A stretch of DNA of 64,000 nucleotides, from NCBI RefSeq assembly GCF_001412215.1, contig NZ_LLWP01000004.1:1-64000 (forward strand), written 5' to 3'. Position numbers and translations under genes: made by a program. The stretch's first letter is position 1; every line of letters begins with the position of its first letter. Under the pieces are notes generated by a model. The model was not told where the DNA came from, searched no databases, and was given only the letters and a program-made list of their open reading frames with translations. Below, in pieces: positions 1 through 24,758 of the stretch. The DNA is from Pedobacter sp. Hv1 (GTDB lineage: Bacteria; Bacteroidota; Bacteroidia; Sphingobacteriales; Sphingobacteriaceae).

Positions 1-3000
1 ACAGCAACAGATACCGATACACAGAATAGTGTTGCAGATCTACAAATCACCAATACCGATGGTAAAATTCAATATATTCCTGGTACCACAAATACTTATA
101 CTATTGTAGCAAGTAATGTAGGCCCAAGTGATGTAACTGGAGCAAGGGTTACCAATACACTTCCAGCGGGAGTTACTGGTACATGGACTGCAGTTTATAG
201 TGGTGCAGCAACTGGTACTGCTAATGGTACTGGTAGTATTTCTGAATTGGTAAATATGCCAAGCGGAACAACCGTTACTTATACTTATGTAGTAAGTGTA
301 CCAAGTAGCTATACAGGTAATTTTGTAAATACAGCTACTATTGCAGCTCCTGTTGGTGTAACCGATCCAACACCAGCAAATAATACAGCAACAGATACCG
401 ATACGCAGAATAGTACTGCCGATCTTAAAATTACAAATACAGATAATAAAGTTCCTTATGTGCCAGGTACTACCAATACTTATACGATGGTGGTTACCAA
501 TGATGGACCAAGTGATGTAATTGGTGCAACAGTGGCCAATACATTACCAGCAGGCGTAACTGGTACATGGACGGTAGTTTATACTGGTGGAGGTACTGGT
601 AATGCCAATGGTAGTAATAGTATTGCAGAAACAGTTAATTTGCCAAGTGGAGCTACAGCAACCTATACCTTTGTTGTAAACGTACCAAGTAGCTATACGG
701 GTAACTTTGTAAATACTGGAACAGTTACAGCACCAGCTTATGTAACCGATCCAACGCCTGCAAATAATACAGCAACAGATACCGATACACAAAACAGTAT
801 TGCCGATCTGAGGATCACCAATACCGATGGAAAACTGCAATATGTACCAGGTACCACAAATACCTATACCGTAGTTGTAGATAATGTTGGGCCAAGTGAT
901 GCAGTTGGAGCAACTGTTGTAAATGCACTTCCAGTAGGTATTTCTACCAGTAGTTGGACAGCAGTATATACTGGTGGAGCAACTGGTACAGCTAATGGAA
1001 CAGGTGGTATCAATGAAACGGTAAACATACCAATAGGTGGTAAAATTACTTATACCGTGGTGATGACCATTCCATCAGGCCGCACTGGCGATATGATCAG
1101 TATTGCAACAGTTGCAACCCCTGTAGGAATAACCGACCCAACCCCAGCAAATAACTCTGCTACAGATACAGATACCCAAAATAGCATCAGCGATCTTAGG
1201 GTAACAAAAATTGTTGATAACATGACACCAGATGCTGGATCAACAGTTAACTTTAAAATCACTGTGGTTAATGATGGACCAAGTGATGCCACTGGTGTTA
1301 AAGTTACAGACTTGTTGAAAGCGGGTTATACGTTTGTAAGCGCAACCCCATCGGTTGGTACTTACAATAACCTTACAGGCCTTTGGACAATAGGTAACCT
1401 CATTTATAACCAAAGTGTTGAATTGGCTATACGAGCTAAAGTTGTACCAGATGCATTAGCAGCTAATTATGTAAATACAGCGACTGTTACTGGCGATCAA
1501 CCAGATCCTACACCTGCTAATAATACTTCAACAATTACACCTGTACCAAGACAAGTAGTTGATCTAGCAATTACCAAAATTGTAGATAACCAAACACCTG
1601 ATGCGGGTAGCGAAGTTACATTTACCTTAAAAGTTGTAAATAATGGACCAAGTAGGGCTTCTAATGTAATGATGAATGACTTACTTAAAGCTGGCTATAC
1701 TTTTGTAAACGCTAATCCTTCAAGAGGCGTATATAATGTTGCTACAGGGATATGGCAGTTAGGTTTCTTAGAGGCTAATGAAGAAGTAACTATTGCTATC
1801 AAAGTAAAAGTTAATCCAGATTTGGCTGCAACTGAATATGTAAACACTGCCGTAGTATTTGGAGATCAATTTGAACATGTAACGGGTAACAACACAGCTA
1901 CAGTTACTCCTGTGCCTGTTCCAGTTGCAGATCTTCAAATTACAAAAACAGCGTCAAGTAATACACCTTCTATCAATACCAATGTTGTATTTACTTTAAC
2001 AGCAACTAATAAAGGCCCAAGTAATGCTACTGGAGTTAGTGTGAAAGACCTGTTAAAAGCCGGATATACATTTGTAAGTGCAACTGCATCAACAGGTACT
2101 TATAACAATACAACTGGTACTTGGACAATTGGTAATTTGGCCAGTGGTGCTTCTGTTACCTTAAAAGTAACGGCATTGGTAAAAGCAACTGGTCCGTATG
2201 ACAATACAGCTACGGTTACTGGCACAGAAAAAGATCCAATACCGGGTAATAATACAGTAACTATTACACCAGTACCACAAGCAACCCCAGTTGCAGTTAA
2301 CGATGAAGTTAAGCTATGTGGTGGTGGCAGTGCTACAGTGATCGATATCTTAGCAAACGATCTTAAATCAATTGCTGATCTTGATCCTTCAAGTGTAGTG
2401 ATCACTAAACAACCATCAAATGGTAGAATTACGGTAGATCCAGTAACAGGAAAAGTAACTTATACCCCTAATAACGGATATATTGGCAATGATGATTTTA
2501 GTTATACCGTAAAAGATAAAAACGGCGGTACTTCTAATGTTGCTAATGTGAAAATTGCCATTAATCAACCAATTATTGCGGTTAATGATAATGCAACTAC
2601 TAATCCAAATACAGCGGTTACCTTAGATATTTTAGCTAATGATATCAAAGGATCTGCAGACATTGTACCTAGTTCTGTTATCATAACACAACAGCCAAGC
2701 AATGGAACTTTAGCAATCGATCCGGTAACTGGTAAAGTAACGTATACACCAAATGTAGGGTTCTTCGGAACAGACAGCTTCAAGTATACTGTAAAAGATG
2801 CCAATGGATGTGTTTCTAATGTAGCCACAGTAGAAATCAAACTTAACGATCTGCCTAAAATTGGCTTAGCTAAGTCTGTAATGGCTGTTCAAAAACAACA
2901 AAATGGATCATACAATATTACGTATCACTTTGTTGTAGGTAATTATGGTACAGCAGTACTGAATAATGTAAGCATTAAAGACGACTTAAGACAAACCTTT

Positions 3001-3594
3001 AAAGGCGATGTATTTAGTGTGAAAAGCATTACTTCGTTAGGTGCCCTAAAAATTAACCCTCAGTACAACGGTAGTTCTAATACAGAAATGCTGTTGGCAG
3101 GAAATACTCTTGCTGTTGGAGAAGTTCAGCATATTGAAATGGTAGTTAACATTACCTTAAGTAACAATAAAGGCACTTATAACAATTCGGCAACTGCAGA
3201 GGGTACTTCACCTAGTGGATTAAAATCAACAGATATATCAACAGATGGCCTGAAACCTGATCCAACAATACCAGGAGATGTAACACCATCTATTCCAACA
3301 CCAGTAGACCTGACCAAACCTGGAGAGTTTATACCAGAAGGATTCTCACCAAATCAGGACGGAACGAATGACACATTTGTAATTAGAAACACCGGTAATA
3401 AACGTATTTCATTAGAAATTTTCAACCGTTGGGCAAATAGAGTGTACAGAAGTACCGATTATAAAAATGATTGGGCCGGACAAAGTAATGAAGGAGTTCG
3501 TGTAGGTAACGATTTACCTGAAGGAACATATTTCTACATTATAATAATTGATGGAAAAGATAAATATGTAGGTTCTATTACATTAAAACGATAA
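1..3594 (+). CDS. DUF11/Ig-like repeat surface protein with CHU_C (type IX secretion type B) C-terminus, 5'-truncated by window
   Basis: The frame is open from base 1, so the true start lies upstream; 1197 codons are visible. Three near-identical DUF11 units (about residues 9-393) carry the motifs GPSD, TGTW and DPTPANN. Three more divergent DUF11 units with LLKAGYTFV follow (about 394-760). Next come two Ig/cadherin-like units with VTYTPN and DxFxYTVKD (about 765-955), another DUF11-like unit, and a C-terminal CHU_C domain beginning near residue 1111 (IPEGFSPNQDGTND). CHU_C marks cargo of the type IX secretion system, so the protein is probably exported and attached or released at the cell surface as an adhesin or matrix protein. 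The PorP/SprF gene starts 2 bases after the stop, the usual arrangement for these adhesins. Cargo status is inferred from family knowledge. Confidence 0.9.
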   Translation, partial: TATDTDTQNSVADLQITNTDGKIQYIPGTTNTYTIVASNVGPSDVTGARVTNTLPAGVTGTWTAVYSGAATGTANGTGSISELVNMPSGTTVTYTYVVSVPSSYTGNFVNTATIAAPVGVTDPTPANNTATDTDTQNSTADLKITNTDNKVPYVPGTTNTYTMVVTNDGPSDVIGATVANTLPAGVTGTWTVVYTGGGTGNANGSNSIAETVNLPSGATATYTFVVNVPSSYTGNFVNTGTVTAPAYVTDPTPANNTATDTDTQNSIADLRITNTDGKLQYVPGTTNTYTVVVDNVGPSDAVGATVVNALPVGISTSSWTAVYTGGATGTANGTGGINETVNIPIGGKITYTVVMTIPSGRTGDMISIATVATPVGITDPTPANNSATDTDTQNSISDLRVTKIVDNMTPDAGSTVNFKITVVNDGPSDATGVKVTDLLKAGYTFVSATPSVGTYNNLTGLWTIGNLIYNQSVELAIRAKVVPDALAANYVNTATVTGDQPDPTPANNTSTITPVPRQVVDLAITKIVDNQTPDAGSEVTFTLKVVNNGPSRASNVMMNDLLKAGYTFVNANPSRGVYNVATGIWQLGFLEANEEVTIAIKVKVNPDLAATEYVNTAVVFGDQFEHVTGNNTATVTPVPVPVADLQITKTASSNTPSINTNVVFTLTATNKGPSNATGVSVKDLLKAGYTFVSATASTGTYNNTTGTWTIGNLASGASVTLKVTALVKATGPYDNTATVTGTEKDPIPGNNTVTITPVPQATPVAVNDEVKLCGGGSATVIDILANDLKSIADLDPSSVVITKQPSNGRITVDPVTGKVTYTPNNGYIGNDDFSYTVKDKNGGTSNVANVKIAINQPIIAVNDNATTNPNTAVTLDILANDIKGSADIVPSSVIITQQPSNGTLAIDPVTGKVTYTPNVGFFGTDSFKYTVKDANGCVSNVATVEIKLNDLPKIGLAKSVMAVQKQQNGSYNITYHFVVGNYGTAVLNNVSIKDDLRQTFKGDVFSVKSITSLGALKINPQYNGSSNTEMLLAGNTLAVGEVQHIEMVVNITLSNNKGTYNNSATAEGTSPSGLKSTDISTDGLKPDPTIPGDVTPSIPTPVDLTKPGEFIPEGFSPNQDGTNDTFVIRNTGNKRISLEIFNRWANRVYRSTDYKNDWAGQSNEGVRVGNDLPEGTYFYIIIIDGKDKYVGSITLKR
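26..1180 (+). repeat. Three tandem DUF11-coding DNA repeats of about 382-387 bp
   Basis: Units begin near 26, 408 and 793 and end near 1180. Each starts with a segment encoding NSxADL followed by ITNTD, and each ends with the DPTPANNTATDTDTQN segment. Nucleotide similarity between neighbours is high, more than protein selection alone needs, which suggests recent duplication or gene conversion. The array probably continues upstream of the window. Confidence 0.8.
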
Positions 3595-3596
3595 TT

Positions 3597-4526
3597 ATGA
3601 AAAAATATATAACATTAGCATTATTGTTGATATCAGCTTCTGCAAGCAAATTACATGCACAGCAAGAAGCAATGTACTCACAGTACATGTTCAATACGCT
3701 AGCTATTAACCCAGCCTACGCAGGGAGTAGAAATGTAACTTCGGCAACCGCTTTATACCGTAACCAATGGGTGGGTATAAACGGTGCGCCAGAAACCGTT
3801 ACCTTTTCTATCGATGCTCCATTAAATAGTAAAAAAGTAGGCTTAGGGCTACAAGTATTTAATGATAAGATTGGTATTACCAAAACTACTGGCGCATTTG
3901 CAAGTTATGCCTATCGTATTCGCTTACAAAAGGGAACACTTGCATTTGGTTTACAAGCCGGAGCAAGTCAATACAGAGCAGATTTCCAGAATGTATCACT
4001 GAACCCTGATCCATCAAACGATGTTGCATTTAATCAGAATGTAAATAAGGTATTGGTTAACGTAGGAACCGGAATTTATTACAACACCGATCGTTTTTAT
4101 ATCGGATTGTCATCTCCGCAATTGCTCAATAACAAACTCACCAATTTTACAGTTGAGACCAGCAATGTATTTAATGGACAAGCGCTCCATTTGTTTTTTG
4201 CAACAGGTTATGTTTTCCCACTTTCTGATGTGTTTGCACTTAAACCTTCTGTATTGGTTAAAGGTGTAAAAGGAGCACCAATTGAAGCCGATCTAAATGC
4301 CACCTTATGGATTAAAGACGTATTTGCAATTGGGTTGCAATATCGTACAAAAGCAGATATCTCTGCAATGGTAGAGATCCAAGCCAGTCCGCAGATCCGC
4401 TTAGGTTATGCCTACGATAGAAGTTTAACCAAATTGGTACAATTCAATAATGGAAGCCACGAGATCATGTTACGCTATGAATTTGGTTTCGAAAAAGGAA
4501 AAATATTATCTCCTAGATACTTTTAA
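3597..4526 (+). CDS. PorP/SprF family type IX secretion system membrane protein
   Basis: 309 residues with a Sec signal peptide (hydrophobic residues 5-17, cleavage near LHAQQ). The mature N-terminus has the family hallmark MYSQYMFN...INPAYAGSR, followed by a beta-rich outer-membrane barrel ending in a terminal Phe. PorP/SprF proteins are inner-leaflet outer-membrane proteins paired with CHU_C cargo and needed for its secretion or attachment. The gene starts 2 bases after the adhesin gene and is followed after 11 bases by the OmpA gene, so the three are almost certainly one operon. This is an accessory PorP paralogue dedicated to the neighbouring cargo rather than the core PorP, judging from context. 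Confidence 0.9.
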   Translation: MKKYITLALLLISASASKLHAQQEAMYSQYMFNTLAINPAYAGSRNVTSATALYRNQWVGINGAPETVTFSIDAPLNSKKVGLGLQVFNDKIGITKTTGAFASYAYRIRLQKGTLAFGLQAGASQYRADFQNVSLNPDPSNDVAFNQNVNKVLVNVGTGIYYNTDRFYIGLSSPQLLNNKLTNFTVETSNVFNGQALHLFFATGYVFPLSDVFALKPSVLVKGVKGAPIEADLNATLWIKDVFAIGLQYRTKADISAMVEIQASPQIRLGYAYDRSLTKLVQFNNGSHEIMLRYEFGFEKGKILSPRYF

Positions 4527-4537
4527 TATTTTAAGAC

Positions 4538-6637
4538 ATGCAGATTAGAAAGAATTATTTAGCTGTTATGATTGGTTTGTTCCTGCTACCATTTACAATG
4601 CAGGCACAGCAGAAATCTAACATTGCTTCATTCATGAACAAGGCAACTAAGGAATATACTTCACTTAGATATGTATCAACCATACAAATACTAACACAGG
4701 CCTTAAAAAAAGATCCAGAGAATGTTGCGGCCAAAGAAATGTTGGCCAACAGTTATAGAAAGATCAAAGAGTATGATAATGCGGCAATTTGGTATGCACA
4801 ATTAAGTGTTGCCAAAGAATTAAAGCCAGAATGGGCATTGCAGTATGCTGAAGTGCTGGCCAACCAAAAAAAATATGCAGAATCGGAAAAATGGTATCAA
4901 AAATACCAAACATTGGTAGCAACAGATGCTAGAGCAGCAGCTTTTGTAAAAGCCTATCCATCTATTACTGCTTTGGCAAAAGATCAAGGTCAGTTTAAGA
5001 TCAACTACACAGACCTGAATACGGTCAATTCTGAATATGCTCCTGCTTTTTATAAAAATGGATTGATCTTTAGCAGTAACCGTAATCGTTTTGAAGTAAC
5101 AAGAACCATTTTTGGTTGGGATGAAACGCCTTTTACAGATCTATATGTTGTTGATCAATTAAGTGACATTAAGGCTGTAAATACAGATAGCTTGATTAAA
5201 GAAGTTCGTCGCGATTCTCTAAAATTAAAAAAGCTATATAAAGTTAATGACGACGATACCCGTCCAACAAGTAATGACAGTAAAGTTCTAGGTAATTTAA
5301 GTTTGCCTTACAAAGAAGATACCCTAGGTCAACTATTTGTGCTCAATCAAAAAGCGAAACTAATCGGGGGTAAGGTCAATACAAAATATCATGAAGGACC
5401 TGCAGTTGCACTACCTGATGGATCATTAATCTTTACCAGAAATAATGTAATCAATGGTAAAACCGCAAAAAGTAAAGAAGGGATCAATAAACTAAAGTTA
5501 TATACGGCAAGTGGTCCAACTTGGGACAATATTGAAGCTTTCCCTTTTAACAATGACGAATATTCTGTTGGTCACCCGGCAGTAAACAAACAAGGTACAG
5601 TACTTATTTTTGCATCAGATATGCCGGGAGGCTTTGGTGGAGTAGATCTCTATTACAGTAAAAGAAATAGCTTAACAGAAGCATGGACTAAGCCTGTAAA
5701 TATGGGTAAAGCTGTGAATACCGAAGGAGATGAAATGTTCCCGTCAATTAGTGCAGATAGTATCTTGTTTTTTGCGTCTACAGGTCATCCAGGTTTAGGA
5801 GGTTTAGATATTTTTCAGATTGGTTTAAAGGGCGAAACAGCACAAGGAGTGGCATTGAATTTAGGTGCACCAATTAACTCTTCAGTTGATGATTTTGGAT
5901 TGATTAGATCAGAAAATGGAAAGACTGGCTTTTTCACTTCAAACAGAAGAGGAAACGATGATATCTATAGTTTTGTAGGCGAGAAAAAAGTGATCGTTGA
6001 AAAACCAGTATTCGCTTTAGAAGGTTTGGTGCTAAACAAAGAAACAAATTTACCGATCAAAGAGGCAACGGTTATTTTAACAGAACCTAACCTTGGCCCA
6101 ATAAGTGTAAAAACTGATATGAATGGGGCATTTAAATTTAAGTTGGCAGAAAAATCTGATTATACCCTAACAGGTGAAAAAGCTGGTTTTATGAAAGCTA
6201 CTGATTACGTAAGCACAAATGGGCTTACAAAATCTGAAGTGCTGAAAAGAAACTTGTATATGAGCGAAATTGTAATTGGTAAGGCCATAAAAATCGAGAA
6301 TATATTCTATGACTTTGATAAATATAACATCAGACCAGATGCAGCAATAGAGTTAGATAAATTGGTAACTGTATTGAAAGAAAATCCAACAATATGGATT
6401 GAGTTAGGCTCTCATACAGACAGTAGAGGTAATGATTTATATAATTTAAAGTTATCTCAAAACCGTGCAAATTCTGCAGTTGAATACATTATCAGTAAAG
6501 GGATCGCAAAAGAGCGTATTACTGCTAAAGGTTATGGCGAAACTATGCTGGTTAACAAATGCGCAAATGGTGTTAAATGTACCGAAGAAGAGCATCAGTT
6601 GAACAGAAGAACAGAATTTAAAATCGTAAAACAATAA
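4538..6637 (+). CDS. OmpA-family protein with TPR, PD40 (WD40-like) and carboxypeptidase-regulatory-like domains (PorE-like)
   Basis: 699 residues. A signal peptide (residues 1-23, ending MQAQQ) is followed by TPR-like helices (about 26-140), PD40 beta-propeller segments (about 165-485, e.g. FSSNRNRF and FFTSNRRGNDDIYSF), a CarboxypepD_reg-like sandwich (about 500-575) and an OmpA C-terminal domain (about 585-699). The OmpA domain carries the peptidoglycan-binding signatures YDFDKYNIRPDA and SHTDSRG...SQNRA. Such proteins anchor the type IX apparatus or its cargo to peptidoglycan. It is last in the operon with the CHU_C adhesin and PorP/SprF, and a strong terminator follows 50 bases downstream. 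The domain order matches PorE-like proteins, but orthology with PorE is not established here. Confidence 0.9.
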   Translation: MQIRKNYLAVMIGLFLLPFTMQAQQKSNIASFMNKATKEYTSLRYVSTIQILTQALKKDPENVAAKEMLANSYRKIKEYDNAAIWYAQLSVAKELKPEWALQYAEVLANQKKYAESEKWYQKYQTLVATDARAAAFVKAYPSITALAKDQGQFKINYTDLNTVNSEYAPAFYKNGLIFSSNRNRFEVTRTIFGWDETPFTDLYVVDQLSDIKAVNTDSLIKEVRRDSLKLKKLYKVNDDDTRPTSNDSKVLGNLSLPYKEDTLGQLFVLNQKAKLIGGKVNTKYHEGPAVALPDGSLIFTRNNVINGKTAKSKEGINKLKLYTASGPTWDNIEAFPFNNDEYSVGHPAVNKQGTVLIFASDMPGGFGGVDLYYSKRNSLTEAWTKPVNMGKAVNTEGDEMFPSISADSILFFASTGHPGLGGLDIFQIGLKGETAQGVALNLGAPINSSVDDFGLIRSENGKTGFFTSNRRGNDDIYSFVGEKKVIVEKPVFALEGLVLNKETNLPIKEATVILTEPNLGPISVKTDMNGAFKFKLAEKSDYTLTGEKAGFMKATDYVSTNGLTKSEVLKRNLYMSEIVIGKAIKIENIFYDFDKYNIRPDAAIELDKLVTVLKENPTIWIELGSHTDSRGNDLYNLKLSQNRANSAVEYIISKGIAKERITAKGYGETMLVNKCANGVKCTEEEHQLNRRTEFKIVKQ

Positions 6638-8051: not shown

Positions 8052-8105
8052 ATTTATACGAAACCGTTCATTTTCGATACGAAAAGCTCAAATCTCAGGA
8101 CTAAA
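8052..8105. promoter_or_regulatory. Array C: three 21-bp-spaced half-sites upstream of the LytTR response regulator
   Basis: Read on the minus strand the half-sites are TTTA-GTCCTGAG, TTTC-GTATCGAA and TTTC-GTATAAAT, starting at 8101, 8080 and 8059. The first matches arrays A and B. Because GTAT/ATAC half-sites are nearly self-complementary, the array can also be read on the plus strand toward the LytTR gene at 8168; there a TA dinucleotide lies 35 rather than 34 bp after the last half-site and the -7 match is poor. Autoregulation is plausible, but the orientation is uncertain. Confidence 0.55.
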
Positions 8106-8167: not shown

Positions 8168-8914
8168 ATGTATAGATGCGTAGTAATTGATGATGAAGCT
8201 CATGCGATTGAGGGTATAAAAAAATATATCGACAATGTTCCTGAATTAAAATTGGTAGCCACTTATACCGATCCTCTAATCGCATTAAAGGAAATTGGCG
8301 CAATAGGAACAATTGACCTTATATTTTTAGATGTTGATATGCCTAAAATTACAGGTATTGAATTGGCAAAGGAAATTAGAGGACAAACAAAAAAGCTAGT
8401 TTTTACCACTGCACATACCAAGTATGCTTACGATGCCTTTAAAGCAGATGCTGACGATTATTTGCTAAAACCATACTCGTTAGGGCAGTTTTTGATTTGT
8501 ATCAATAAACTGTTTCCAAAACATGAGCAGCGCCAAACTGAAGAAAAACCCAAAGACAATAAAGCCGATTTTTTCTTTGTAAAAAGTAGAGAAGAAAGCC
8601 CTAAACTTGTTAAAATTAGCTATTCTGACATTTTAATGGTCGAAAGCAAACGAAATTATGTGTTGATCTATACCAAATATAAACAAGTTTTAACCTACAT
8701 GTCTTTAACTGAAATAGCCAACATATTACAAGAGCATTCTGATTTTATTCAGTTGCAAAGAGGGTTTATCATTAAAAAAGAGGCAATAGAATCTGTAGAT
8801 GGCCATAGTGTTAAAATTATCAATGGTATTGAATTAATTGTTGGCGACAATTACAGAAAAGAATTTGCCGTATTTATTGCAGAGAAATGGTTAAGAACAG
8901 GGAAAACCAATTGA
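8168..8914 (+). CDS. LytTR-family response regulator (REC-LytTR)
   Basis: 248 residues. The REC domain (1-120) has the acidic pair VIDDE, phosphoacceptor Asp55 in FLDVDMP, Thr in FTTAHT and Lys in LLKPYS. The LytTR DNA-binding domain (about 140-245) has KISYSDILMVESKRNYVLIYT and FIQLQRGFIIKK. LytTR proteins bind direct repeats on one face of the helix. It is presumably the partner of the LytS-type kinase at 9226, whose gene is separated from it only by the oppositely oriented peptide gene. The 21-bp-periodic arrays A-D around it are the obvious candidate targets (inference). Confidence 0.9.
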   Translation: MYRCVVIDDEAHAIEGIKKYIDNVPELKLVATYTDPLIALKEIGAIGTIDLIFLDVDMPKITGIELAKEIRGQTKKLVFTTAHTKYAYDAFKADADDYLLKPYSLGQFLICINKLFPKHEQRQTEEKPKDNKADFFFVKSREESPKLVKISYSDILMVESKRNYVLIYTKYKQVLTYMSLTEIANILQEHSDFIQLQRGFIIKKEAIESVDGHSVKIINGIELIVGDNYRKEFAVFIAEKWLRTGKTN

Positions 8915-8938: not shown

Positions 8939-9112
8939 TTATTTTCCAGTGATGCCAGATGTCCCTAAAATAATTGTTAACATACCAGACGAATTTGAAG
9001 TTGTCACCGTCATGTTTGTGGTTGGCTCTGTCGGTGCATCGTTGTTTTGTACACTGTTTTGTTGATAAATGAAAAGTGTGTTTTGGTTGATTTTGAATGT
9101 TTTGCGTTTCAT
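8939..9112 (-). CDS. Short Ser/Thr-rich, Cys-free peptide; candidate LanB substrate (RiPP precursor)
   Basis: 57 residues, ATG at 9112-9110, TAA at 8941-8939. The basic N-terminus MKRKTFKINQNTLFIY resembles the Lys-rich leaders of Bacteroidota class I lanthipeptides. Residues 28-57 hold 13 Ser/Thr in 30 positions (e.g. TTNMTVTTSNSSG), but the whole peptide has no Cys. It lies between the LytTR regulator and its kinase, and 1.2 kb from a LanB dehydratase encoded on the same strand. A dedicated promoter precedes it: array D and TAAGTTTC at 9138-9131, 34 bp after the last half-site. Codon periodicity is too short to test. I infer that it is a precursor whose Ser/Thr are dehydrated. With no Cys and no LanC nearby, lanthionine rings could not form within the peptide. 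Confidence 0.7.
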   Translation of the reverse strand: MKRKTFKINQNTLFIYQQNSVQNNDAPTEPTTNMTVTTSNSSGMLTIILGTSGITGK

Positions 9113-9130
9113 AATGTTTTAATTTTTTAT

Positions 9131-9218
9131 GAAACTTAGTGTAGTAATTACTTCAATAGAAAAAATTTATACAGAAAGGCTGTTTACCGATACAGAACTC
9201 TTTTTTTACAGTACAAAA
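9131..9218 (-). promoter_or_regulatory. Array D plus -7 element: promoter of the Cys-free peptide
   Basis: Minus-strand half-sites TTTT-GTACTGTA, TTCT-GTATCGGT and TTCT-GTATAAAT start at 9214, 9193 and 9172 (21-bp steps). TAAGTTTC at 9138-9131 begins 34 bp after the third. Predicted transcription starts roughly 13 bases before the ATG at 9112. The array also sits immediately upstream of the divergent kinase gene (9226) and may control both. Confidence 0.7.
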
Positions 9219-9225
9219 GGTTATT

Positions 9226-10321
9226 ATGTCAAAAAGTATGGAGTGGTTAAAAAGAAATAAATATGATCTTATAGCGTGGCTTGGTTTCGTGTTTTACGAA
9301 ACTATTCTAGTGGGGTTACTATTTAACCAATTTGTTAATTTTTTCATTTATTTTGCTCATTATGCTGTAATTATTGTCTTTTTTTATATTCATGCCAACT
9401 ACACCTTACCATATACGCTAAAAAATAAAACAAGGGCGATATTTCTTTTGCCAGCCATAATTATTGTACAAATTACTTTATATATTTTGGCTCATCGTTT
9501 AGTCGATATCATTTTGTTTGCATTGGAGATTATCAAACCTGATGCTTATAACAAATTTGGTTCTGATTACATTCTTAGAAATATATATCGGGGTTTGTAT
9601 TTTTTAGGATTTTCTACAGGATATTATTATTTACGCAATTACTTTAAGGAACGAAAAAAGACCGAAGAATTAGAAAAACAAAGGCTGAATGATGTCATTT
9701 TGCAGCAACAGACAGAGCAGGCTTTGGCCAAAGCACATAATGCCTTTTTGAAAGCACAAATTAATCCCCATTTTTTATTCAACACGCTAGATTTTGTTTA
9801 TCACCATGTAAATGAGCATTCGCCAATGGCAGGCGAGACCATTATCAGTTTAGCACAAATGATGAGATATGCAATTGATGCAGATAAAATGGGTGAGTTT
9901 GTAGAATTGGGAGATGAAATAGTACAGGTAGAAAACCTGATTTATCTCTATCAGATTAGAAAAAAACAATAAGCTAGAGATTAGCTTGGATTATACAGCA
10001 GAAGTAAGGAAAATTCAATTTATTCCACTTATACTGCTTACGCTTGTAGAGAATATATTTAAACATGGCAACATTACTACCGAGGGGCACGGTGCTCAAA
10101 TTACCTTAACAGTGGTTGAAGATGTTTTTTATATGGAAACAGAAAATCTGATCAGTAGAAATATTAGTAAAATAAGCAATAACGCAGGTATTTCTAATAT
10201 TGAAAATAGGCTACGTTATGCTTATGGTAATGATTTAACATTTACCTATGGCCAAATTGAGGATAATCATTTTAAGGTTAGCATAAGCATTCCTATAACT
10301 GCTTTAAGCGTGCCCGCTTAG
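9226..10321 (+). pseudogene. LytS-type sensor histidine kinase interrupted by a one-base frameshift in an A7 run
   Basis: Frame one (9226-9972, 248 codons) has about four membrane segments and then the His_kinase motif QINPHFLFNTLDF with the phosphoacceptor His. It stops at 9970 just after the run A7 (9960-9966). Removing one A joins it to the downstream frame (through 10321), giving RKNNKLEISLDYTAE. This frame contains the ATPase N-box LVENIFKHG and the G-box-like GISNIENRL. Together the pieces make a normal-length kinase of about 365 residues, the expected partner of the LytTR regulator at 8168. The break separates the H-box from the ATP-binding half, so the protein as read could not autophosphorylate in cis. 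A sequencing or assembly error in the homopolymer, a genuine null allele and phase variation are all possible. The 3' end overlaps the convergent LanB gene by 29 bp. Confidence 0.85.
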
Positions 10322-13115
10322 TCTGTAGCAACTTTAACAAGTAATGATATAGAATAGTTTCGTGCTTGCGTTGATCTGAGGCAAAAAGCCTGTTCACATG
10401 CATATGAATAAGATCTGCTAACATGGTTTCCGGTTCGTTGATAGCAATGCACTTCGCCATAATTTTATGAAGTACCTTTTGCCTGCTGCTTACATAAGGA
10501 ACAGCCAACACTTTTGAAATTTCATTGTTGTTTTTGAAGGTGGCAAAATTGAGGTTCAGTTTTTTAAAAATTTCAATATCCATTTTCATTTCTTCTGCAA
10601 AATTAGCAGCCACTTTTTTTACAAAATCAATTTGCTGGTCAATGCTGTTTGTATAACAATTGCAAAAGAACTGCATGGTCTGTAAACCATAAATATATAA
10701 TTCTTCTATTGTTTTGGCATTTTTAAGAATATTGATGACCAGTTTGCTATCGAGATAGAAAAAATGTTCAACCAAATCTATTCTTGTAGAGCCATATCTT
10801 TTTGTCTCGCGGTAATAGGTTTTGAGCTCAATATCCTTAACTGTTTCCGAAAGTAAAAAAGGTTCAAATAGGTTTTTAAATGAGGGTAGAAGAATGGCAA
10901 TAGAATCTGTGTTTTTAACCTTTAATCGTAAACGGATATGTGGAGAAGGATCATCGTATCGAATAAAAAACCACTGCTCTAATAAAAATCGATAGTTTTT
11001 AATGAAAGTTTGAATTTGCTGTAACAATAGCGTATTACTGGTATATGGATGACAATAAATCTCAAAATATAACCAATCGCTACCAGGTAGTTTAATGTCT
11101 GTTGGCTTTCTAAAATTTTGTGCAGCATGATTTAACTCTTCTAATGGAGCATAAATTCTCTCTTTATGATAGTAATTGACAATATATTGTGGAGCATAAC
11201 CATTTCCATTTTCGTCTTTTAAAAAGTCAACAGGTGCAATTAAGGCCTCGGTAATATATAGATCTGCTCCATTTTGCTGTCTCGAATAATTTAAAAAAGC
11301 CAATAGATCTTCATCTTGATCAGGATGAAAGGTCAAGGTCTGATCACCGTTTCCGGCTTTAAATGGTAAAGAAATTTTTTGAAGGACTAACCATTTTTTA
11401 AATTGTTGGATTGTTTCTTCAACTGATTCTTCCTTTTTGGGTTTGCAGTAAACTGATGGGACCAACCATTGTGCAGGAGCAACAATGATGTGTTTAAAGT
11501 ATACCCTTGGGTAATGCTCAAGACCTGGGAAGTATTCGTTGAGCGTAAATTGAAGGTTGCTTTGAATGCCTTGGTGCTGGAGGTCGCAAAGAAAACGATA
11601 TACTGCCAGATCTGATCGCGAATAATTATATGCCGAAGAAATTCGTGGAACTAATCGTTTGCCTAATTTTTTTGAGCTCAGTATAATTTCGTCACTTTTA
11701 ATACCGATCATAATATCATTCAGCTCAATTGGATTGGCTGAGGTAGACCAGCTCAAAATTGGGAGTTCGTGTGTATAGATGTGATTTCTTCTATTGACGT
11801 TGTCAATATTTTTTTCTGCCTGGTAGGCAATATCAAAAAAAAGAACTGTTGGGTTTACCTCATTTTCTAAATCAGCTATTTCTTTTCCGTAAGCCCCAAG
11901 CTCATCATTGGCTAAAGTAAAACGTCCTAATAGTGAATTTGCCGTGCAACCTCCTAAACTTTCCATCACAACATTGTCTTGATATAAATGAAAAATAAGG
12001 CTAAAAGTATTGGGTAAAGGATGAGGAAGATGAAGCTGTTGTTGTTCGAAATTTTGAAGATCGATCTCTTCTCCTTTGATAATTTTGTTCAATAGCAAAC
12101 GATGTAATTTGGTGTATTCAAATTGATTTTTGAAGTTGCTGTTAATTTTTGCTGCTTTTAAAATTTCTATCAGATCATTGGCATGGTATTGCTGTTCGAG
12201 ATTTCCATAGCCAATGCCAAGTTCTGGATCCATAGCCATAGCAAGTGGAATGTGTCGCTGTTCGTATTTTTTAATAAATGCAAGTTTAAATTCTCTTAGA
12301 TTGTTAGAGATGGGACTAGACTTGATATTTCGTAAACAATTGATCAGCTCAGGTATTTGTTGGAGTTTCTTTTGGTCAAAATACCCTTGTATTTTACGTT
12401 CAGAAAGTATGTAATCGATACTTTTATCCCTTTGGTTAGCCTTTATTCTTTTAAAATAGTCTTCACCAGTGATATTAGGAAACAAGTCTGTTGAAATGAG
12501 TTGCAAGGCAATAAGTTGGCGAAGTAGATCTTTACTACTGGTTTCATTAATTTGAAATTCGGTTTTTAGATATGCACATAAATCTACAATACTTGTTTTG
12601 GTCGTACAGATTTTTAAGATTGTTTTCAATTCATCAAAAGAAATAACCGAAGACAATTGAAATTGCCCATCTTTAAAACTGATATACCTGATTTCATTTC
12701 CTACTTCATATACTGTAGAATTACTGAGGATAAAGGTGGCATGATTTAAACTGTCTTTAACATCTACATCGCTATCTTTCTCACTCCAATCTGTAAATGT
12801 ATGTTCCATCATCAGCGATTGAAGTTGGGCAGGTTCTGTAACGTCGTTGTGTAGCGGAAAAGTAGAAAATGACGCAAAGGAACCAAAGGGGGTTGCCCTA
12901 TATCTGGCCCTATTAAAATATTTCCAAATGGTAAACTGTATTTTTTGGGGGAGCAATTCTATTTCGTTTACTTTTTTATCTGCAATTAATGCATAAAAGA
13001 TAGGAGAAGAGGTTTTGATCTTTTCTTTTAACTCCTCCCAAACGGATGTCAATGTGTTTTCAATTGGGAAAGCTGGAGTGCGACAAATAATTAATTGAAA
13101 TGGTGTAATTTTCAT
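10293..13115 (-). CDS. Full-length LanB-type lantibiotic dehydratase (glutamylation + elimination domains)
   Basis: 940 residues from ATG at 13115; an in-frame ATG at 13187 would add 24 residues, but the family-like N-terminus ITPFQLIICRTPAFP follows the internal Met. The N-terminal dehydratase domain shows RYRATPFGSFASFS, the classic TPFG motif of Lant_dehydr_N. The C-terminal about 270 residues match the SpaB_C/thiopeptide-type domain (DWLYFEIYCH, QWFFIRYDDPSPHIRLRLK). LanB enzymes use glutamyl-tRNA to glutamylate Ser/Thr of a precursor and then eliminate glutamate to give dehydroalanine/dehydrobutyrine. Both halves are fused here, so it should be self-sufficient for dehydration. The likely substrate is the Ser/Thr-rich peptide at 8939-9112. 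No LanC cyclase, protease or dedicated transporter is adjacent, and no 21-bp array was found at its promoter. Confidence 0.9.
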   Translation of the reverse strand: MKITPFQLIICRTPAFPIENTLTSVWEELKEKIKTSSPIFYALIADKKVNEIELLPQKIQFTIWKYFNRARYRATPFGSFASFSTFPLHNDVTEPAQLQSLMMEHTFTDWSEKDSDVDVKDSLNHATFILSNSTVYEVGNEIRYISFKDGQFQLSSVISFDELKTILKICTTKTSIVDLCAYLKTEFQINETSSKDLLRQLIALQLISTDLFPNITGEDYFKRIKANQRDKSIDYILSERKIQGYFDQKKLQQIPELINCLRNIKSSPISNNLREFKLAFIKKYEQRHIPLAMAMDPELGIGYGNLEQQYHANDLIEILKAAKINSNFKNQFEYTKLHRLLLNKIIKGEEIDLQNFEQQQLHLPHPLPNTFSLIFHLYQDNVVMESLGGCTANSLLGRFTLANDELGAYGKEIADLENEVNPTVLFFDIAYQAEKNIDNVNRRNHIYTHELPILSWSTSANPIELNDIMIGIKSDEIILSSKKLGKRLVPRISSAYNYSRSDLAVYRFLCDLQHQGIQSNLQFTLNEYFPGLEHYPRVYFKHIIVAPAQWLVPSVYCKPKKEESVEETIQQFKKWLVLQKISLPFKAGNGDQTLTFHPDQDEDLLAFLNYSRQQNGADLYITEALIAPVDFLKDENGNGYAPQYIVNYYHKERIYAPLEELNHAAQNFRKPTDIKLPGSDWLYFEIYCHPYTSNTLLLQQIQTFIKNYRFLLEQWFFIRYDDPSPHIRLRLKVKNTDSIAILLPSFKNLFEPFLLSETVKDIELKTYYRETKRYGSTRIDLVEHFFYLDSKLVINILKNAKTIEELYIYGLQTMQFFCNCYTNSIDQQIDFVKKVAANFAEEMKMDIEIFKKLNLNFATFKNNNEISKVLAVPYVSSRQKVLHKIMAKCIAINEPETMLADLIHMHVNRLFASDQRKHETILYHYLLKLLQTKRARLKQL

Positions 13116-13260
13116 GTTTTTTGTTTTTTTGTTACTAATAATGAATTGAGCTACCATTTTGTTATAAGGAAACGCTAATATTCTCATATTTTGATAATCA
13201 CTGCGATTTTAATCAAACACTTTAATCTTAACCAATTGATTAATTTAACTTTGTGGCTGT

Positions 13261-15627: not shown

Positions 15628-16215
15628 ATGAAAAAAATAACGATATGTATCGTATGGGCAATGCTATGCCTAAATTTTGAGGCCAATAGCCAAGAAATTA
15701 AACCACTCAAGCTCGGCCAGAAAATACCGATGGCAATTTTACAACAAACAATGCCACAACTAACAGGCAATAGTTTAAAACCAGATAGCCTAACATTAGC
15801 TACTTACAAAGGCAAATTTATTATTCTAGATTTTTGGGCTACTTGGTGTAGCAGTTGTATCTATCAGTTTGCTAAGCTAGAAAACTTACAGCAAAGGTAT
15901 CAAGACCAAATCAAGATACTTTTAATAAATGCAGTATATACAAAAGATACGCCACAACGGATGTATGGCATTTTAAGTGGAGAAAAGGCCCCCTTTATTA
16001 AAAGCAGTTTACCCAGTGTTTATAATGATACTGTGTTATCAAAATTGTTTCCGCATGCTTACTTACCGCATTATGTATGGCTAGGCCCAAAAGGCGAATT
16101 TCTGGCACTTACCAATACCGATATGTTGAATGAACAAACCATAAAATCTGTATTAGAAGCCTACAAACAAGATGAAACCGCAACTGCCAAACTTTTAAAG
16201 CAGAACAAACTATGA
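15628..16215 (+). CDS. TlpA-like thioredoxin-fold protein
   Basis: 195 residues with an N-terminal signal peptide (hydrophobic 5-18). The thioredoxin fold has the active site WATWCSSC (about residues 71-78), preceded by KGKFIILDF, and a cis-Pro region near YLPHYVWLGPKGEF. TlpA/ResA-like proteins are periplasmic thiol-disulfide oxidoreductases. The stop overlaps the start of the downstream SusC gene by four bases (ATGA), so the genes are translationally coupled. TlpA-like proteins next to SusCD pairs are common in Sphingobacteriaceae; the protein may assist envelope folding or act on the imported substrate. Confidence 0.85.
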   Translation: MKKITICIVWAMLCLNFEANSQEIKPLKLGQKIPMAILQQTMPQLTGNSLKPDSLTLATYKGKFIILDFWATWCSSCIYQFAKLENLQQRYQDQIKILLINAVYTKDTPQRMYGILSGEKAPFIKSSLPSVYNDTVLSKLFPHAYLPHYVWLGPKGEFLALTNTDMLNEQTIKSVLEAYKQDETATAKLLKQNKL

Positions 16216-19200
16216 GAGCGCTTGTATGCATTGTATGTTTGTTGATTAGCCTAGGTGTTAATGCACAACAATTTAAAGGGATTGTTTACGGTCTACCAGA
16301 TAGTACGGTTTTGATTGGCGCAAGTATACATATCTCAGCTAAAATTAATCTCCAGACCGATAGTAAGGGCAGTTTTACGGTCAATCTGCCTAATGGTAGT
16401 TACTTGGTTAAAATCAAATATTTGGGTTATAAAGAATTACTTCAAGAAATTAAGGTGCCAAGTGTTGATGTTTTTAAGTTCTACCTACAACCCGATGTTA
16501 GTTTTTTGCAAGAGGTTAAGATCTACACAGGCTATCAAACCCTATCAAAGCAACAAGCTACGGGTTCGTTTCAGAGCATTGGCAATAAGGTGCTCAATGA
16601 ACAATTTAGTACAGATATATTGAGTAGGCTAGAAGCAGTAGCTAATGCGGTTACAGTAGACCGTAGATCGACCACAAGCGGACGCTTAATGGTTAGGGGC
16701 CTGAGTACATTAAATGGGAATAGAGATCCTTTAATTGTCTTAGATAACTTTCCTTATCAGGGAAATATCGAGAATATCAATCCGAATGATATCGAAACCA
16801 TCACCATACTTAAAGATGCAGCAGCTACTGCTATATGGGGCAGTAGGGCAGGTAATGGTGTAATTGTTCTAACTTCAAAAAAGGCTAAGCTAGGTCAACC
16901 TTTAATGGTTGCACTAAACAGTAACCTGAGTATTGTAAACAAACCAGATCTGTTTACCATTAAACAAATGTCTACTGCCGATTATATCGATGTAGAACAA
17001 TTTTTATATGATAAAGGGTTTTACAATTCAAAAATAAACGCTACAAGTAAACCTGTGCTATCTCCATTTATTGAATTGGTATTGGCTAAAAAGAATGGCA
17101 CAATCACTGCCGAAAGCTTCAATGAAAAATTGGGTCAGATGAAAACAACCGACCTAAGAAACGAATTGAGTAGAACAAATTACCAACAGGCCATTAAGCA
17201 ACAATATGCCCTAAATGTAAGTGGTGCTGAAAAAAGGATAGATTGGAGTGTTTTGGTAGGCTATGATGATCATTTGTCAGCCTTGGCAGCTAAAAGTTCC
17301 AGATTGAGTTTAACCACTAGAAATTCGTTACGGATTGCAAAAGGATTACAGCTAGATTTTGGAGCCACTTATACTTTAAATTCATCAGTAAATGGTAAGG
17401 CCGCTTATACCGATCTGGATAATGGATCGGGTATAATCTATCCGTATATAAAGTTGAGAGACGAAAATGGCAATCCTTTGGCCTTACCCAAAACTTATTC
17501 AAATTCTTATCTCAATAGTTTAAATAAGAATGTTTTTTACGATTGGAACTATTATCCAGCTACTGATTATCTAAATAATAAGCTTAAAAGTTCTTCAAGA
17601 GACTTATTGGCAAATGTAGCCCTGAAATACAATATTGTAAATGGACTAACTGCCCAATTGAATTACCAGAACGAAAGACAGGTGACGAGTAATAAGACTA
17701 TTTATGGTGTAAATAGTTATACCGTACGCAATATTGTCAATTCGTTTACTCAAGTTAATAGTGCAGGTGTAGCCACAAGAGTTATCCCTATGGCAGAAAT
17801 TTTAGACCAGACCGAAAATATTTTAAAGTCATACAATGTAAGAGCGCAACTGAATTACGATCAAACTTGGGGCAAACACCAATTAAATTTTTTAGGTGGA
17901 TTGGAAATCAATGAAAATAATCTGGAAGGACAAGGCAATAGGGTATATGGTTATGATGATGAAAATCTTTCTAGTGTTTTGGTAAATTTAGCCACAACAT
18001 ACCCCAATTATATTACCAAATCTTTAGGATATATCAATCCAGGCCCAAATGGATTAAGTAGCCGATTGAATAGATTTGTTTCTTTGTACAGTAATATAGC
18101 CTACAACTTTAAGAAAAGGTATATCCTTTCTGCAAGTGCCAGAAAAGATGCATCTAATCTTTATGGCCTAAACACCAATGATAAATGGAAACCACTTTGG
18201 TCTGTTGGTGTGGCTTGGCTAATTAACGACGAGCCATTTTATCAAATCTCTTGGTTGCCCCAACTAAAGTTAAGAGCAAGTTATGGTTTTAGTGGTAATG
18301 TAGATCTTAGCCGTACTGCAGTAACTACCATTTTGAATACCTCAACCTCTGTTTTTACCAATACACCTGTTGCCAGGTTTGATCAATTCAGTAATCCAGA
18401 TTTAAGATGGGAAAACGTAGGTACAACTAATATAGGGATAGATTTCTCTTTCAAAAATAATAGACTATCTGGTACCATCGAACTTTACCAAAAGAAAGCA
18501 ATCGATTTATATGGTTCTAGTCCGGTCGATTTTACTGCTGTCCCTACATCAGCATTGATTAAAAATGTAGCCAGTATCAGGGCAAGAGGGCTTGATATAA
18601 CACTGAGGTCTCAAAATACAAATGGAGTATTGAAATGGAATACTGACCTTAATTTCAATGTGTATAAAGACAAGGTTTTGGCCAATTATCAAAGTAGTAA
18701 CCAAGGAAGTATTTTTGTAGGCAATGGAAATATTGCCACCGCTATGGAGGGATATCCTGTGTATAGTGTGTTATCTTATGCTTGGGCAGGCCTAGATCCA
18801 ACAAATGGCAATCCACAAGGATATTATCAAAACAAAATTTCTAGTGACTATAACCTGCTTACAGGCAGTACAGTTAAAATTACCGATCTAATTTACCATG
18901 GTCCGGCCTTTCCAAGCATTTTTGGTACCCTAGGTAATACATTTATGTACAAAGGCATAAGCTTGGCAGCAAGGTTAAGTTATAAGTTTGGCTATTATTT
19001 TAGAAGAAGTAGTATTAACTATACCAGTCTTTATAATTCTGGAACGGGGCATCTAGATTATGCAAAAAGGTGGCAAAAACCAGGTGATGAAACAAATACT
19101 GAGATACCTTCATTGGTTTATCCAGCCATAAATAGAAGAGATCAATTTTACAATAATGCCGAAATATTGGTAGAAAAAGGAGACCATATTAGGCTTGCTT

Positions 19201-19394
19201 ATATTTCTTTGGCCTATTCATTTAATGAGCAATGGTTAAAACGTATGCCATTTAAAACTATTCAATTACAGGCCGGTGCCAGCAATTTAGGAATACTTTG
19301 GCGGGCAAATAATGATGGTATTGATCCAGATTATCGTGATAATGTGATTTTACCAAGCAAATACTTCTCTCTAGGTGTGAATTGTACATTTTAA
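16212..19394 (+). CDS. SusC/RagA-family TonB-linked outer-membrane protein
   Basis: 1060 residues. Signal peptide (to about residue 19, GVNAQQ), a CarboxypepD_reg-like domain (about 22-100), a plug domain (about 110-225) with VRGLSTLNGNRDPLIVLDN and ATAIWGSRAGNGVIVLTSKK, then a 22-strand-type barrel ending in an aromatic C-terminus (NCTF). SusC proteins import oligomers through the outer membrane using TonB energy, together with the SusD lipoprotein encoded 11 bases downstream. There are no glycoside hydrolase, peptidase or ECF sigma/anti-sigma genes in the locus, so the substrate cannot be guessed. Confidence 0.92.
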   Translation: MRALVCIVCLLISLGVNAQQFKGIVYGLPDSTVLIGASIHISAKINLQTDSKGSFTVNLPNGSYLVKIKYLGYKELLQEIKVPSVDVFKFYLQPDVSFLQEVKIYTGYQTLSKQQATGSFQSIGNKVLNEQFSTDILSRLEAVANAVTVDRRSTTSGRLMVRGLSTLNGNRDPLIVLDNFPYQGNIENINPNDIETITILKDAAATAIWGSRAGNGVIVLTSKKAKLGQPLMVALNSNLSIVNKPDLFTIKQMSTADYIDVEQFLYDKGFYNSKINATSKPVLSPFIELVLAKKNGTITAESFNEKLGQMKTTDLRNELSRTNYQQAIKQQYALNVSGAEKRIDWSVLVGYDDHLSALAAKSSRLSLTTRNSLRIAKGLQLDFGATYTLNSSVNGKAAYTDLDNGSGIIYPYIKLRDENGNPLALPKTYSNSYLNSLNKNVFYDWNYYPATDYLNNKLKSSSRDLLANVALKYNIVNGLTAQLNYQNERQVTSNKTIYGVNSYTVRNIVNSFTQVNSAGVATRVIPMAEILDQTENILKSYNVRAQLNYDQTWGKHQLNFLGGLEINENNLEGQGNRVYGYDDENLSSVLVNLATTYPNYITKSLGYINPGPNGLSSRLNRFVSLYSNIAYNFKKRYILSASARKDASNLYGLNTNDKWKPLWSVGVAWLINDEPFYQISWLPQLKLRASYGFSGNVDLSRTAVTTILNTSTSVFTNTPVARFDQFSNPDLRWENVGTTNIGIDFSFKNNRLSGTIELYQKKAIDLYGSSPVDFTAVPTSALIKNVASIRARGLDITLRSQNTNGVLKWNTDLNFNVYKDKVLANYQSSNQGSIFVGNGNIATAMEGYPVYSVLSYAWAGLDPTNGNPQGYYQNKISSDYNLLTGSTVKITDLIYHGPAFPSIFGTLGNTFMYKGISLAARLSYKFGYYFRRSSINYTSLYNSGTGHLDYAKRWQKPGDETNTEIPSLVYPAINRRDQFYNNAEILVEKGDHIRLAYISLAYSFNEQWLKRMPFKTIQLQAGASNLGILWRANNDGIDPDYRDNVILPSKYFSLGVNCTF

Positions 19395-19405
19395 GAAAAT
19401 TAAAT

Positions 19406-20811: not shown

Positions 20812-21129
20812 TTATAACTTCGTAGTTACCGCATTGTTATTGATCATTACAGCAGTTGTTGAAGGCAATTCCAGAAAATCTTGGAACTCGTTGATGTCAC
20901 CATTAAAAGCATATTGACAAACTAAAGTGCCCGCTAATCCGCAATCCGGACTTTCATCATCAACTAATCTCCAATTATCAATGTCTTTAATATCAACCGC
21001 TGCTGTAGAGTTGATAATGTATTGATATTTGGGTGTATTGTGCTTAACCTTAAAAGCACTAAGGGTAAATGCTAAGGTCATTCCTAAAAATAAAATAAAC
21101 AATGCCACCGAATTTTTTAAATTTTTCAT
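20812..21129 (-). CDS. Small secreted protein, DUF6520-like
   Basis: 105 residues with an N-terminal hydrophobic signal (VALFILFLGMTLAFTLSAF). The mature part is small with two Cys in a C-x8-C arrangement (DCGLAGTLVC). This layout (signal, short acidic domain, one Cys pair) resembles the Bacteroidota-specific DUF6520 group, whose function is unknown. It converges with the SusD gene. Whether it belongs with the peptide export island to its right is unclear; no 21-bp array was found upstream on its strand. Its N-terminus lacks a GG leader. Confidence 0.6.
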   Translation of the reverse strand: MKNLKNSVALFILFLGMTLAFTLSAFKVKHNTPKYQYIINSTAAVDIKDIDNWRLVDDESPDCGLAGTLVCQYAFNGDINEFQDFLELPSTTAVMINNNAVTTKL

Positions 21130-22740: not shown

Positions 22741-22774
22741 GAGCTCTTATTTTTATTTATAGAATAGCGGACTG

Positions 22775-23023: not shown

Positions 23024-23059
23024 TTAAATTTTTAACTTTGGTTGTATAAGATTTTGTAA

Positions 23060-23142: not shown

Positions 23143-23170
23143 TTTTTCTTTGAAATAGAATTGATTAATC

Positions 23171-24720: not shown

Positions 24721-24758
24721 ATTTTTATAAAAGTTGTAACACCTATTTTGACCTTACA

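Follow-up and report, generated by a model that had tools for sequence, protein, structure and literature searches.

The stretch of DNA analysed here, positions 1 to 64,000 (forward strand) of contig NZ_LLWP01000004.1 from Pedobacter sp. Hv1, is called the window throughout. It carries a locus in which a gene for a small serine- and threonine-rich peptide without cysteine lies between the genes of a sensor histidine kinase (HK) and a response regulator (RR), next to the gene of a LanB-type dehydratase. We consider it probable, with modest confidence, that this locus is a two-component cassette for a peptide signal, with a class I lanthipeptide dehydratase modifying the peptide. The genes, their conservation and fixed architecture, the co-occurrence of peptide and LanB, the catalytic residues and the promoter repeats are read directly from the DNA. 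The order along the forward strand is RR (forward), peptide (reverse), HK (forward) and LanB (reverse), with the following features:

8168..8914, + strand: response regulator with receiver and LytTR DNA-binding domains (Pfam)
8939..9112, − strand: cysteine-free Ser/Thr-rich precursor peptide, 57 aa (open reading frame (ORF), alignment, family model)
9226..10321, + strand: sensor histidine kinase (PF06580), frames 9226-9972 and 9986-10321 (ORFs, Pfam, relatives)
10293..13115, − strand: LanB-type dehydratase, 940 aa from the ATG at 13115 (Pfam PF04738 and PF14028, TIGR03891, NisB 4wd9, catalytic residues)

In the proposed mechanism, the leader of the peptide, in which T[LV]F[VI][YF]K, a likely beta-strand, comes after a basic stretch, would dock on LanB. 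The enzyme would glutamylate Thr and Ser residues of the DPTT-type C-terminal part and then eliminate glutamate, and the product would be a linear peptide with dehydrobutyrine (Dhb) or dehydroalanine. No lanthionine ring is predicted because there is neither a cysteine nor a LanC cyclase. The membrane HK encoded head-to-head with the peptide would sense the processed peptide, and the LytTR regulator would bind repeats spaced by 21 bp at the peptide and regulator promoters and thereby establish feedback. A single LanB gene would, in many relatives, serve several cassettes, in tandem or scattered. Dehydration, the linear product, export, leader removal, sensing by the HK, feedback and the action of LanB in trans are what we infer from the sequences.

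LanB and its cysteine-free peptide family

The main set of loci consists of 100 fetched regions around LanB homologues, picked mostly from the top of a longer homologue list together with distant types, and the window, which gives 101 loci. A second set holds 80 loci with organism names, many of them on contigs common to the first set, and a genus-level set holds 145 genomes. Fetched regions are coded L and genomes G.

The longest LanB ORF spans 10293-13187. The ATG at 13115, already taken as the start by an earlier reading made from the sequence alone (the sequence-only reading), appears to be the better choice, because homologues mostly align from about residue 15-25 of the longest ORF. The protein matches Lant_dehydr_N (E 5e-63) and Lant_dehydr_C (E 8e-54) of Pfam, as well as TIGR03891 and the NisB structure 4wd9 in the PDB (E 3.4e-23). 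Its residues R422, R754, E794 and R797 are invariant in 19 of 19 LanBs and align with R464, R786, E823 and R826 of NisB, which we take to be residues with functional roles. T99 is kept in 17 of the 19. Also invariant in all 19 are Y90, R93, R97, R752 and H928, which align to Y80, R83, R87, R784 and H961 of NisB, residues named in the portion consulted of a mutagenesis study (PMC4341554); the alignment segment of Y90, R93 and R97 is weak (6.6 bits) and surrounds a clear RxTPFG motif. The position of NisB D299 varies, with D in only 4 of the 19 LanBs, and D299A NisB still dehydrates according to the same portion of that study (PMC4341554). Because of the domain, TIGR03891 and NisB matches and the invariant catalytic residues, the window LanB is likely a full two-domain dehydratase. 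A PEARL, a LanB-like peptide aminoacyl-tRNA ligase, has a glutamylation-type domain without an elimination domain; this identity was ruled out, as Lant_dehydr_C is present with its catalytic residues. The description of a full LanB on the peptide's strand about 1.2 kb away was accurate: the interval from the peptide start to the LanB stop is about 1.18 kb and is occupied by the forward-strand HK gene in two pieces.

No LanC was found in the window's genome (0 matches to PF05147), as the sequence-only reading had supposed, and a linear dehydrated product would fit this picture. PF05147 matches occur in 52 of the 145 genus genomes. Among the 100 fetched LanB regions, LanC is present in three, namely L070 (about 6.2 kb off), L123 (adjacent to a LanB that is 26% identical) and L125 (a fragment roughly 3.8 kb off), and only L070 holds a recognised family peptide. 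LanB homologues of all types pooled were found in 116 of the 145 genus genomes.

The precursor itself (MKRKTFKINQNTLFIYQQNSVQNNDAPTEPTTNMTVTTSNSSGMLTIILGTSGITGK) was recounted on the ORF at 8939-9112(-), and its earlier description held: 57 residues with a basic N-terminus, no Cys and 13 Ser/Thr among the final 30. A leader of approximately residues 1-22 (K.FKINQNTLFIY) is proposed, with the putative core running from about TEPTTNM to the C-terminus. Two small hidden Markov models (HMMs), seeded with 26 peptides and applied at E < 1e-3, found 165 family members in 90 of the 101 LanB loci; the seeds come from the same loci, so this count is partly circular, and the position in the HK slot was not derived from them. 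Among the organism-named loci, 75 of 80 hold a member (Pedobacter, Mucilaginibacter, Hufsiella, Olivibacter). An alignment of 37 members, searched separately against whole genomes, gave 341 matches and placed the peptide in 105 of the 145 genus genomes, while the window's genome has one convincing peptide match (E 2.9e-15; next 0.5) and one LanB match. The reading frame is therefore conserved, and LanB beside a short cysteine-free ORF, the pairing for which the sequence-only reading had proposed a search in relatives, recurs widely.

Both sets together yield 191 distinct trimmed peptides, of which 181 have no Cys. They follow the consensus MK.K..KI...TLFVYK..........TDPTT...TTT..TG; the [DNHE]P[TSIVP] motif is present in 161 of them, and Ser/Thr make up 7.9 of the last 25 residues on average. 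No curated family of precursors of ribosomally synthesised and post-translationally modified peptides (RiPPs) corresponds to the 37 members scanned, which had 0 NCBIfam matches and Pfam matches at chance level only. In the 11 loci without an HMM match, L113 and L129 match below the threshold (E 0.07 and 0.24), a small Ser/Thr-rich ORF can be picked out by eye in L108, L109, L120, L124, L125, L127 and L128 (no HK was called in L128), and no candidate was seen by eye in L094 and L123. The candidates of L109, L127 and L128 (approximately 4611-4751, 11535-11672 and 11703-11855) end in CC or TCG motifs and are possibly a Cys-using branch of the peptide family.

The data suggest constraint on the peptide. 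The between-locus ratio of nonsynonymous to synonymous substitution (dN/dS) is about 0.16 for 46 pairs with each sequence used once, a value lowered by the filter applied (equal length, at least 60% amino acid identity, 70-95% nucleotide identity); the wrong-frame control gave 0 usable pairs. The number of copies per locus ranges from 1 to 8, with a single copy in 66 loci. For tandem copies, 151 pairs drawn from within 23 loci give proportions of synonymous and nonsynonymous differences (pS and pN) of 0.48 and 0.039 in the last 20 codons, and of 0.46 and 0.15 in the codons ahead of the FVYK stretch. Tandem copies vary silently but for the most part encode the same C-terminal product, which differs from lineage to lineage. 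Had recent gene conversion been the only cause, the silent differences would have gone too, and one product kept amid silent variation is expected of a product with a specific partner.

Twenty LanB loci from across the class were skimmed with a Ser/Thr filter. HK/RR matches were present in seven (L240, L241, L243, L244, L245, L249, L259) and in none of the other 13. Cys-free DPT/DTT-type peptides diverge from the HK in L240, L241, L243 and L245; L244 deviates, with a Cys-bearing ORF on the HK strand. Three loci without HK/RR (L248, L257, L258) have Cys-bearing precursors, with a double-glycine (GG)-type leader in L257 and L258. The leader stretch K.xKKT[IL] of the family described here resembles the KKTIAKLN leader of the L258 precursors, and a KKT stretch common to Cys-free and Cys-bearing leaders supports docking on LanB. 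In other families of the class (G427, G173, G231, G360 and others), LanB matches stop at about residue 680 in frames of about 740 aa; G231 and G173 carry the C-terminal domain on a separate frame and thus have split LanBs.

The cassette of kinase, peptide and regulator

The position of the peptide gene is close to invariant. Where an HK is present in the locus, 163 of 164 peptide genes are divergent from it within 2.5 kb, and the sole exception (L048) is an over-extended HK start. No family member was placed outside the HK-associated slot in the 101 loci. In 80 of the 90 peptide-bearing loci, the peptide gene or genes are flanked by HK and RR and run opposite to the RR. HK and RR adjoin with the peptide outside in eight (L114-L116, L118, L119, L121, L122, L126), all with a LanB of 25-30% identity, and HK or RR is missing in two (L034, L117). 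Homologues of the HK and of the RR are each present in 99 of the 101 loci, and every other ORF family of at least 120 aa, LanB aside, is confined to at most 39 of them. The recurring families read by eye, which do not include all such families, presumably correspond to HtpG, a large repeat protein, PorP-like and OmpA-like proteins and regulators. The layout of HK, RR and LanB is that of the window in 64 loci; LanB is reversed in 15, the RR is nearer to LanB than the HK is in 14, and eight have other arrangements.

Hydropathy gives two to four membrane segments in the first 200 residues of the HK in 77 of 82 cassettes. In these 82 cassettes, peptide distance correlates with distance in the membrane (sensor) part of the HK once the kinase part is controlled for (partial rho 0.29), and the reverse comparison gives 0.13; none of 300 label permutations reached the observed value. 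In the window, the HK changes frame at an A run near 9960, and its Pfam match lies on 9226-9972; relatives mostly have one open frame.

The cassette also occurs away from LanB. Twenty peptide matches far from the listed LanB matches were chosen (L272-L291), and each of these regions holds one family peptide, in every case free of Cys, and 0 LanB. A divergent HK is present in 19 of the 20 (the contig ends there in the remaining one) and an RR in 19 (not in L276). Pfam confirmed His_kinase in all four cassettes tested and Response_reg together with LytTR in all three tested. Eleven of these remote peptides come from seven single-LanB genomes (G002, G010, G021, G026, G079, G101, G122), of which G010 and G026 had some first-look candidates that were not scored. 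Across the 145 genus genomes, both LanB and peptide are present in 104, LanB only in 12, the peptide only in one and neither in 28 (Fisher p 2e-19, uncorrected for relatedness); the peptide-only genome, G100, is 80% complete. One LanB serving several cassettes would be the simplest reading of this distribution.

Promoter repeats, export and neighbouring genes

Short repeats and a conserved block lie upstream of the peptide and RR genes:

9169..9218, − strand: three direct repeats upstream of the peptide gene at 21-bp spacing, TTTTGTAC, TTCTGTAT, TTCTGTAT
9128..9141, − strand: conserved block CACTAAGTTTCATA ahead of the peptide ATG, candidate promoter element
8056..8084, − strand: two direct repeats TTTCGTAT at 21-bp spacing, upstream of the RR gene and pointing away from it

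The three repeats ahead of the peptide follow one another at exact 21-bp steps, and the exact two-repeat pattern occurs once in the 4.9 Mb genome. Averaged over 89 peptide promoters, the best repeat score is highest at lag 21 (7.40 of 9; shuffles 6.03). A perfect 9-bp repeat is present at this lag in 19 of 89, whereas shuffles give a mean of 0.2 and the second-best lag gives 4. At least 8 of 9 positions agree at lag 21 upstream of the peptide in 40 of 89 loci, of the RR in 40 of 88 and of LanB in 12 of 89; the loci are related, so that these counts are not independent. The peak recurs in the 20 remote cassettes (7.1, against no more than 6.2 at other lags and 5.55-5.95 in shuffles). LytTR regulators are typically associated with direct repeats separated by two helical turns, and the presence of repeats at both the peptide and the RR promoters fits a regulator acting on its own locus. 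The peptide site scores 7.05 in the same-orientation RR upstream region, against 6.86 when shuffled (40 loci). In inverted orientation it reaches 30 of 32 upstream of the RR in 11 of 88 loci, compared with seven in the same orientation and none in shuffles; as the shuffling destroys the RR-side repeats, the support is weak. The CACTAAGTTTCATA block resembles the -7 element of Bacteroidota (consensus TAnnTTTG) and may be part of a promoter.

Exact TTYYGTAT pairs occur at three places in the genome, two of which are this locus and match by construction. The third TTYYGTAT-N13-TTYYGTAT site (L293 1501-1529, C4:417994 in the own genome) lies between a glycosyltransferase-like gene and a divergent gene; it is possibly an additional target, or a chance match. 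A definition of the RR regulon by site search was abandoned, the one-mismatch count not being above its control.

The sole exporter candidate seen is a C39 cluster at window positions 22528-29202, which contains an HlyD gene, a C39 ABC transporter, a C39/VKOR/thioredoxin protein and three Cys-containing GG-leader peptides:

22528-22740, 22775-23023 and 28948-29202: GG-leader peptides (KKVNLLSKAE.KKI.GG)
29487-30236: LytTR regulator next to the C39 cluster

The cluster is 9-16 kb from LanB, and its ABC gene 12 kb. A homologue of this ABC protein is present in five of the 100 other LanB regions (L033, L035, L056, L123, L125). In G027 and G091 (L300, L301), the ABC and HlyD genes share the strand of LanB and stop about 0.1 kb short of it; their identity to those of the window is 85-87% (ABC) and 77-78% (HlyD), and Cys-rich GG peptides are found upstream of LanB at a distance of about 5-8 kb. 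In G028, G045, G049, G058 and G103 this exporter (85-88% identical) lies on a different contig, and in G122 it is 1.2 Mb off; in all, 8 of 10 other genomes searched hold it at 85% identity or more. The sequence-only reading had named a Cys-containing precursor together with LanC in the vicinity as a point that would speak against it. Cys-bearing GG peptides and a C39 exporter do lie nearby, and in G027 and G091 the exporter adjoins LanB; no LanC accompanies it. We read the C39 cluster as an export system in its own right, linked in some close relatives, because six relatives have the exporter away from LanB and no LanC goes with it, although the exporter might serve both systems. The GG-leader peptides at 22.5-29.2 kb were also considered as a hidden Cys partner of the LanB peptide and were discarded, as they have their own C39 transporter.

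Elsewhere in the window, consecutive genes at 1-6637 encode a giant surface protein with DUF11 repeats and a type IX secretion domain (CHU_C), a PorP/SprF protein and an OmpA/PD40 protein. The OmpA-type gene falls into one cluster with genes from 33 other LanB loci; in 29 of these, PorP-like and large repeat proteins are next to it in a different arrangement. At 15628-20770 there are a TlpA-like thioredoxin, SusC and SusD, and similar genes are near LanB in 15-16 of 101 loci each, not clearly above background. Both groups were examined as partners of the cassette, with SusC/SusD/TlpA near 15-16 and type IX secretion or OmpA-type genes near 29-34 of 101 loci, and neither was adopted, since shared descent or background could explain these counts; 10 PorP matches, fragments included, occur in the window's genome. 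Positions 20812-21129 encode a 105-aa protein with a borderline DUF6520 match (25.4 bits, equal to the cut-off of 25.4).

Alternative readings, known systems and significance

Several observations weigh against a signalling function. In this strain the reading frame of the HK is interrupted, by mutation or assembly error. HK/RR pairs are common and LytTR domains number 38 in the window's genome, so that adjacency to the peptide could in principle mean mere regulation. The co-variation of peptide and sensor is only suggestive, as the Mantel-type test ignores phylogeny. One Cys is present in 10 of the 191 family peptides, and Cys occurs in five of the seven weak candidates picked by eye (L108, L109, L124, L127, L128). 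Since 13 of the 20 class-wide loci have no HK/RR match, the link is not a property of every LanB. Upstream regions of LanB also hold repeats at lag 21 (6 of 89 perfect), and the degenerate site with one mismatch is at background (15 genome matches, control 17). No exporter or leader peptidase was found among the recurring families read at the 101 loci, and GG or GA is present at residues 15-35 in just six of the 191 peptides; for these reasons the peptide might act inside the cell. It is also possible that export through the C39 system is linked in some lineages and is not general.

The peptide could be a linear dehydrated antimicrobial, a bacteriocin-like RiPP whose production is triggered by a two-component system that responds to the environment and not to the peptide. 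Known LanB products are mostly antimicrobials, regulators are found in many RiPP clusters, and tandem copies could raise the yield. This explanation is nevertheless unlikely, because the peptide genes are tied to HK and RR even without LanB, the C-terminal part is conserved rather than diversified, and no gene for immunity, export or proteolysis was recognised among the recurring families read, not all of which were identified. The absence of a recurring exporter and of a GG motif in most peptides would suit a regulator that stays in the cell or at the membrane, modified or unmodified, and binds the HK (or the RR) from inside; the divergent peptide gene may be co-regulated with the HK. Homogenised tandem C-termini and a retained LanB suggest a defined mature product instead, and we consider such a regulator rather unlikely.

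Dehydrated residues might also be trapped by His or Lys of the peptide (aza-Michael addition) or by Cys of another molecule, such as the GG peptides of the C39 cluster, to give a cross-linked product. His is present in the last 25 residues of 85 of the 191 peptides, and Cys-bearing GG peptides with a C39 exporter lie near LanB in the window and in G027 and G091. We regard cross-linking as very improbable, since more than half of the peptides, including that of the window, have no His and the C39 exporter is far away or on another contig in six other relatives and is present in only five of the 100 other LanB regions. ORFs of 57 codons are common by chance; a chance ORF beside an unrelated LanB is scarcely credible here and has been ruled out by family conservation, the fixed slot, dN/dS and co-occurrence.

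The preferred reading, a peptide-signal cassette, draws on features that the sequence-only reading overlooked: the setting between HK and RR, the tandem copies with one C-terminal sequence and the cassettes without LanB. They favour signalling over an unusual antibiotic. A wider form of it, which we hold tentatively and judge slightly less than evenly probable, is a multi-channel network of Sphingobacteriaceae in which HK-peptide-RR cassettes form the channels, one LanB dehydrates their Cys-free peptides in trans and the signals are linear and rich in Dhb.

There are common features with known systems. Class I lanthipeptides of Bacteroidota (pinensin, PedA of Pedobacter lusitanus, peptides of Chryseobacterium and Runella) share the two-domain LanB; the system described here differs in having no LanC, Cys or GG site, in the HK-peptide-RR cassette and in LanB-less cassettes elsewhere in the genome. 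Bacteroidota LanBs have been co-expressed in E. coli with GluRS and tRNA-Glu from the phylum (PMC9993889). Nisin autoinduction (NisA, NisRK) runs through a two-component system and resembles our locus in combining such a system with a LanB-dehydrated peptide, dehydration being predicted here from the genes. However, nisin has rings, a transporter, immunity and a protease, its HK and RR belong to other families than those of the cassette, and here there are several cassettes per LanB. That nisin induces its own production is stated in the portion consulted of PMC4341554. The ComCDE and Agr pheromone systems likewise have a small peptide gene beside an HK and a LytTR-type RR. AgrA and ComE sites are direct repeats about two helical turns apart, as at this locus; in contrast to those systems, there is no AgrB or recurring ABC exporter, the kinase is of PF06580 and a LanB accompanies the peptide.

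Cyanotins and prochlorosins offer a parallel in which one synthetase acts on many scattered substrates, some of them without Cys, but their enzyme is a class II LanM. To our knowledge, there is no HK/RR at each of their substrates. Cys-free cyanotin substrates are reported in the portion consulted of PMC7268733, where lanthipeptides were mined via LanC; such mining misses LanBs without LanC. A lanthipeptide-synthetase homologue has been tied to quorum sensing in Clostridium, where the LanM-like CA_C0082 lies beside agr loci (PMC10301443, as far as consulted). CA_C0082 is an effector without catalytic residues and is not needed for the signal peptide, whereas the window LanB keeps its catalytic residues. 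No LanB in Bacteroidales is reported by PMC10352776, and nothing comparable was met in PMC10880069 and PMC9576775, in each case for the parts consulted. The literature searched, itself seen in part, contained neither a LanB with a Cys-free peptide and HK/RR nor a description of linear Dhb-rich peptides as a class of bacterial signals; Caetano 2020 and Bothwell 2021 (Pedobacter lusitanus), which possibly bear on novelty, were not covered.

A LanB without LanC is easily dismissed as a broken lanthipeptide cluster. The recurrence of the cassette across many species, sometimes several times per genome, suggests a widespread and so far undescribed peptide signalling system. If this is true, the persistence of full LanBs without cyclases would be explained, dehydratases that accept Cys-free substrates would be on offer, and the Bacteroidota would gain a peptide-based system of cell-cell communication.

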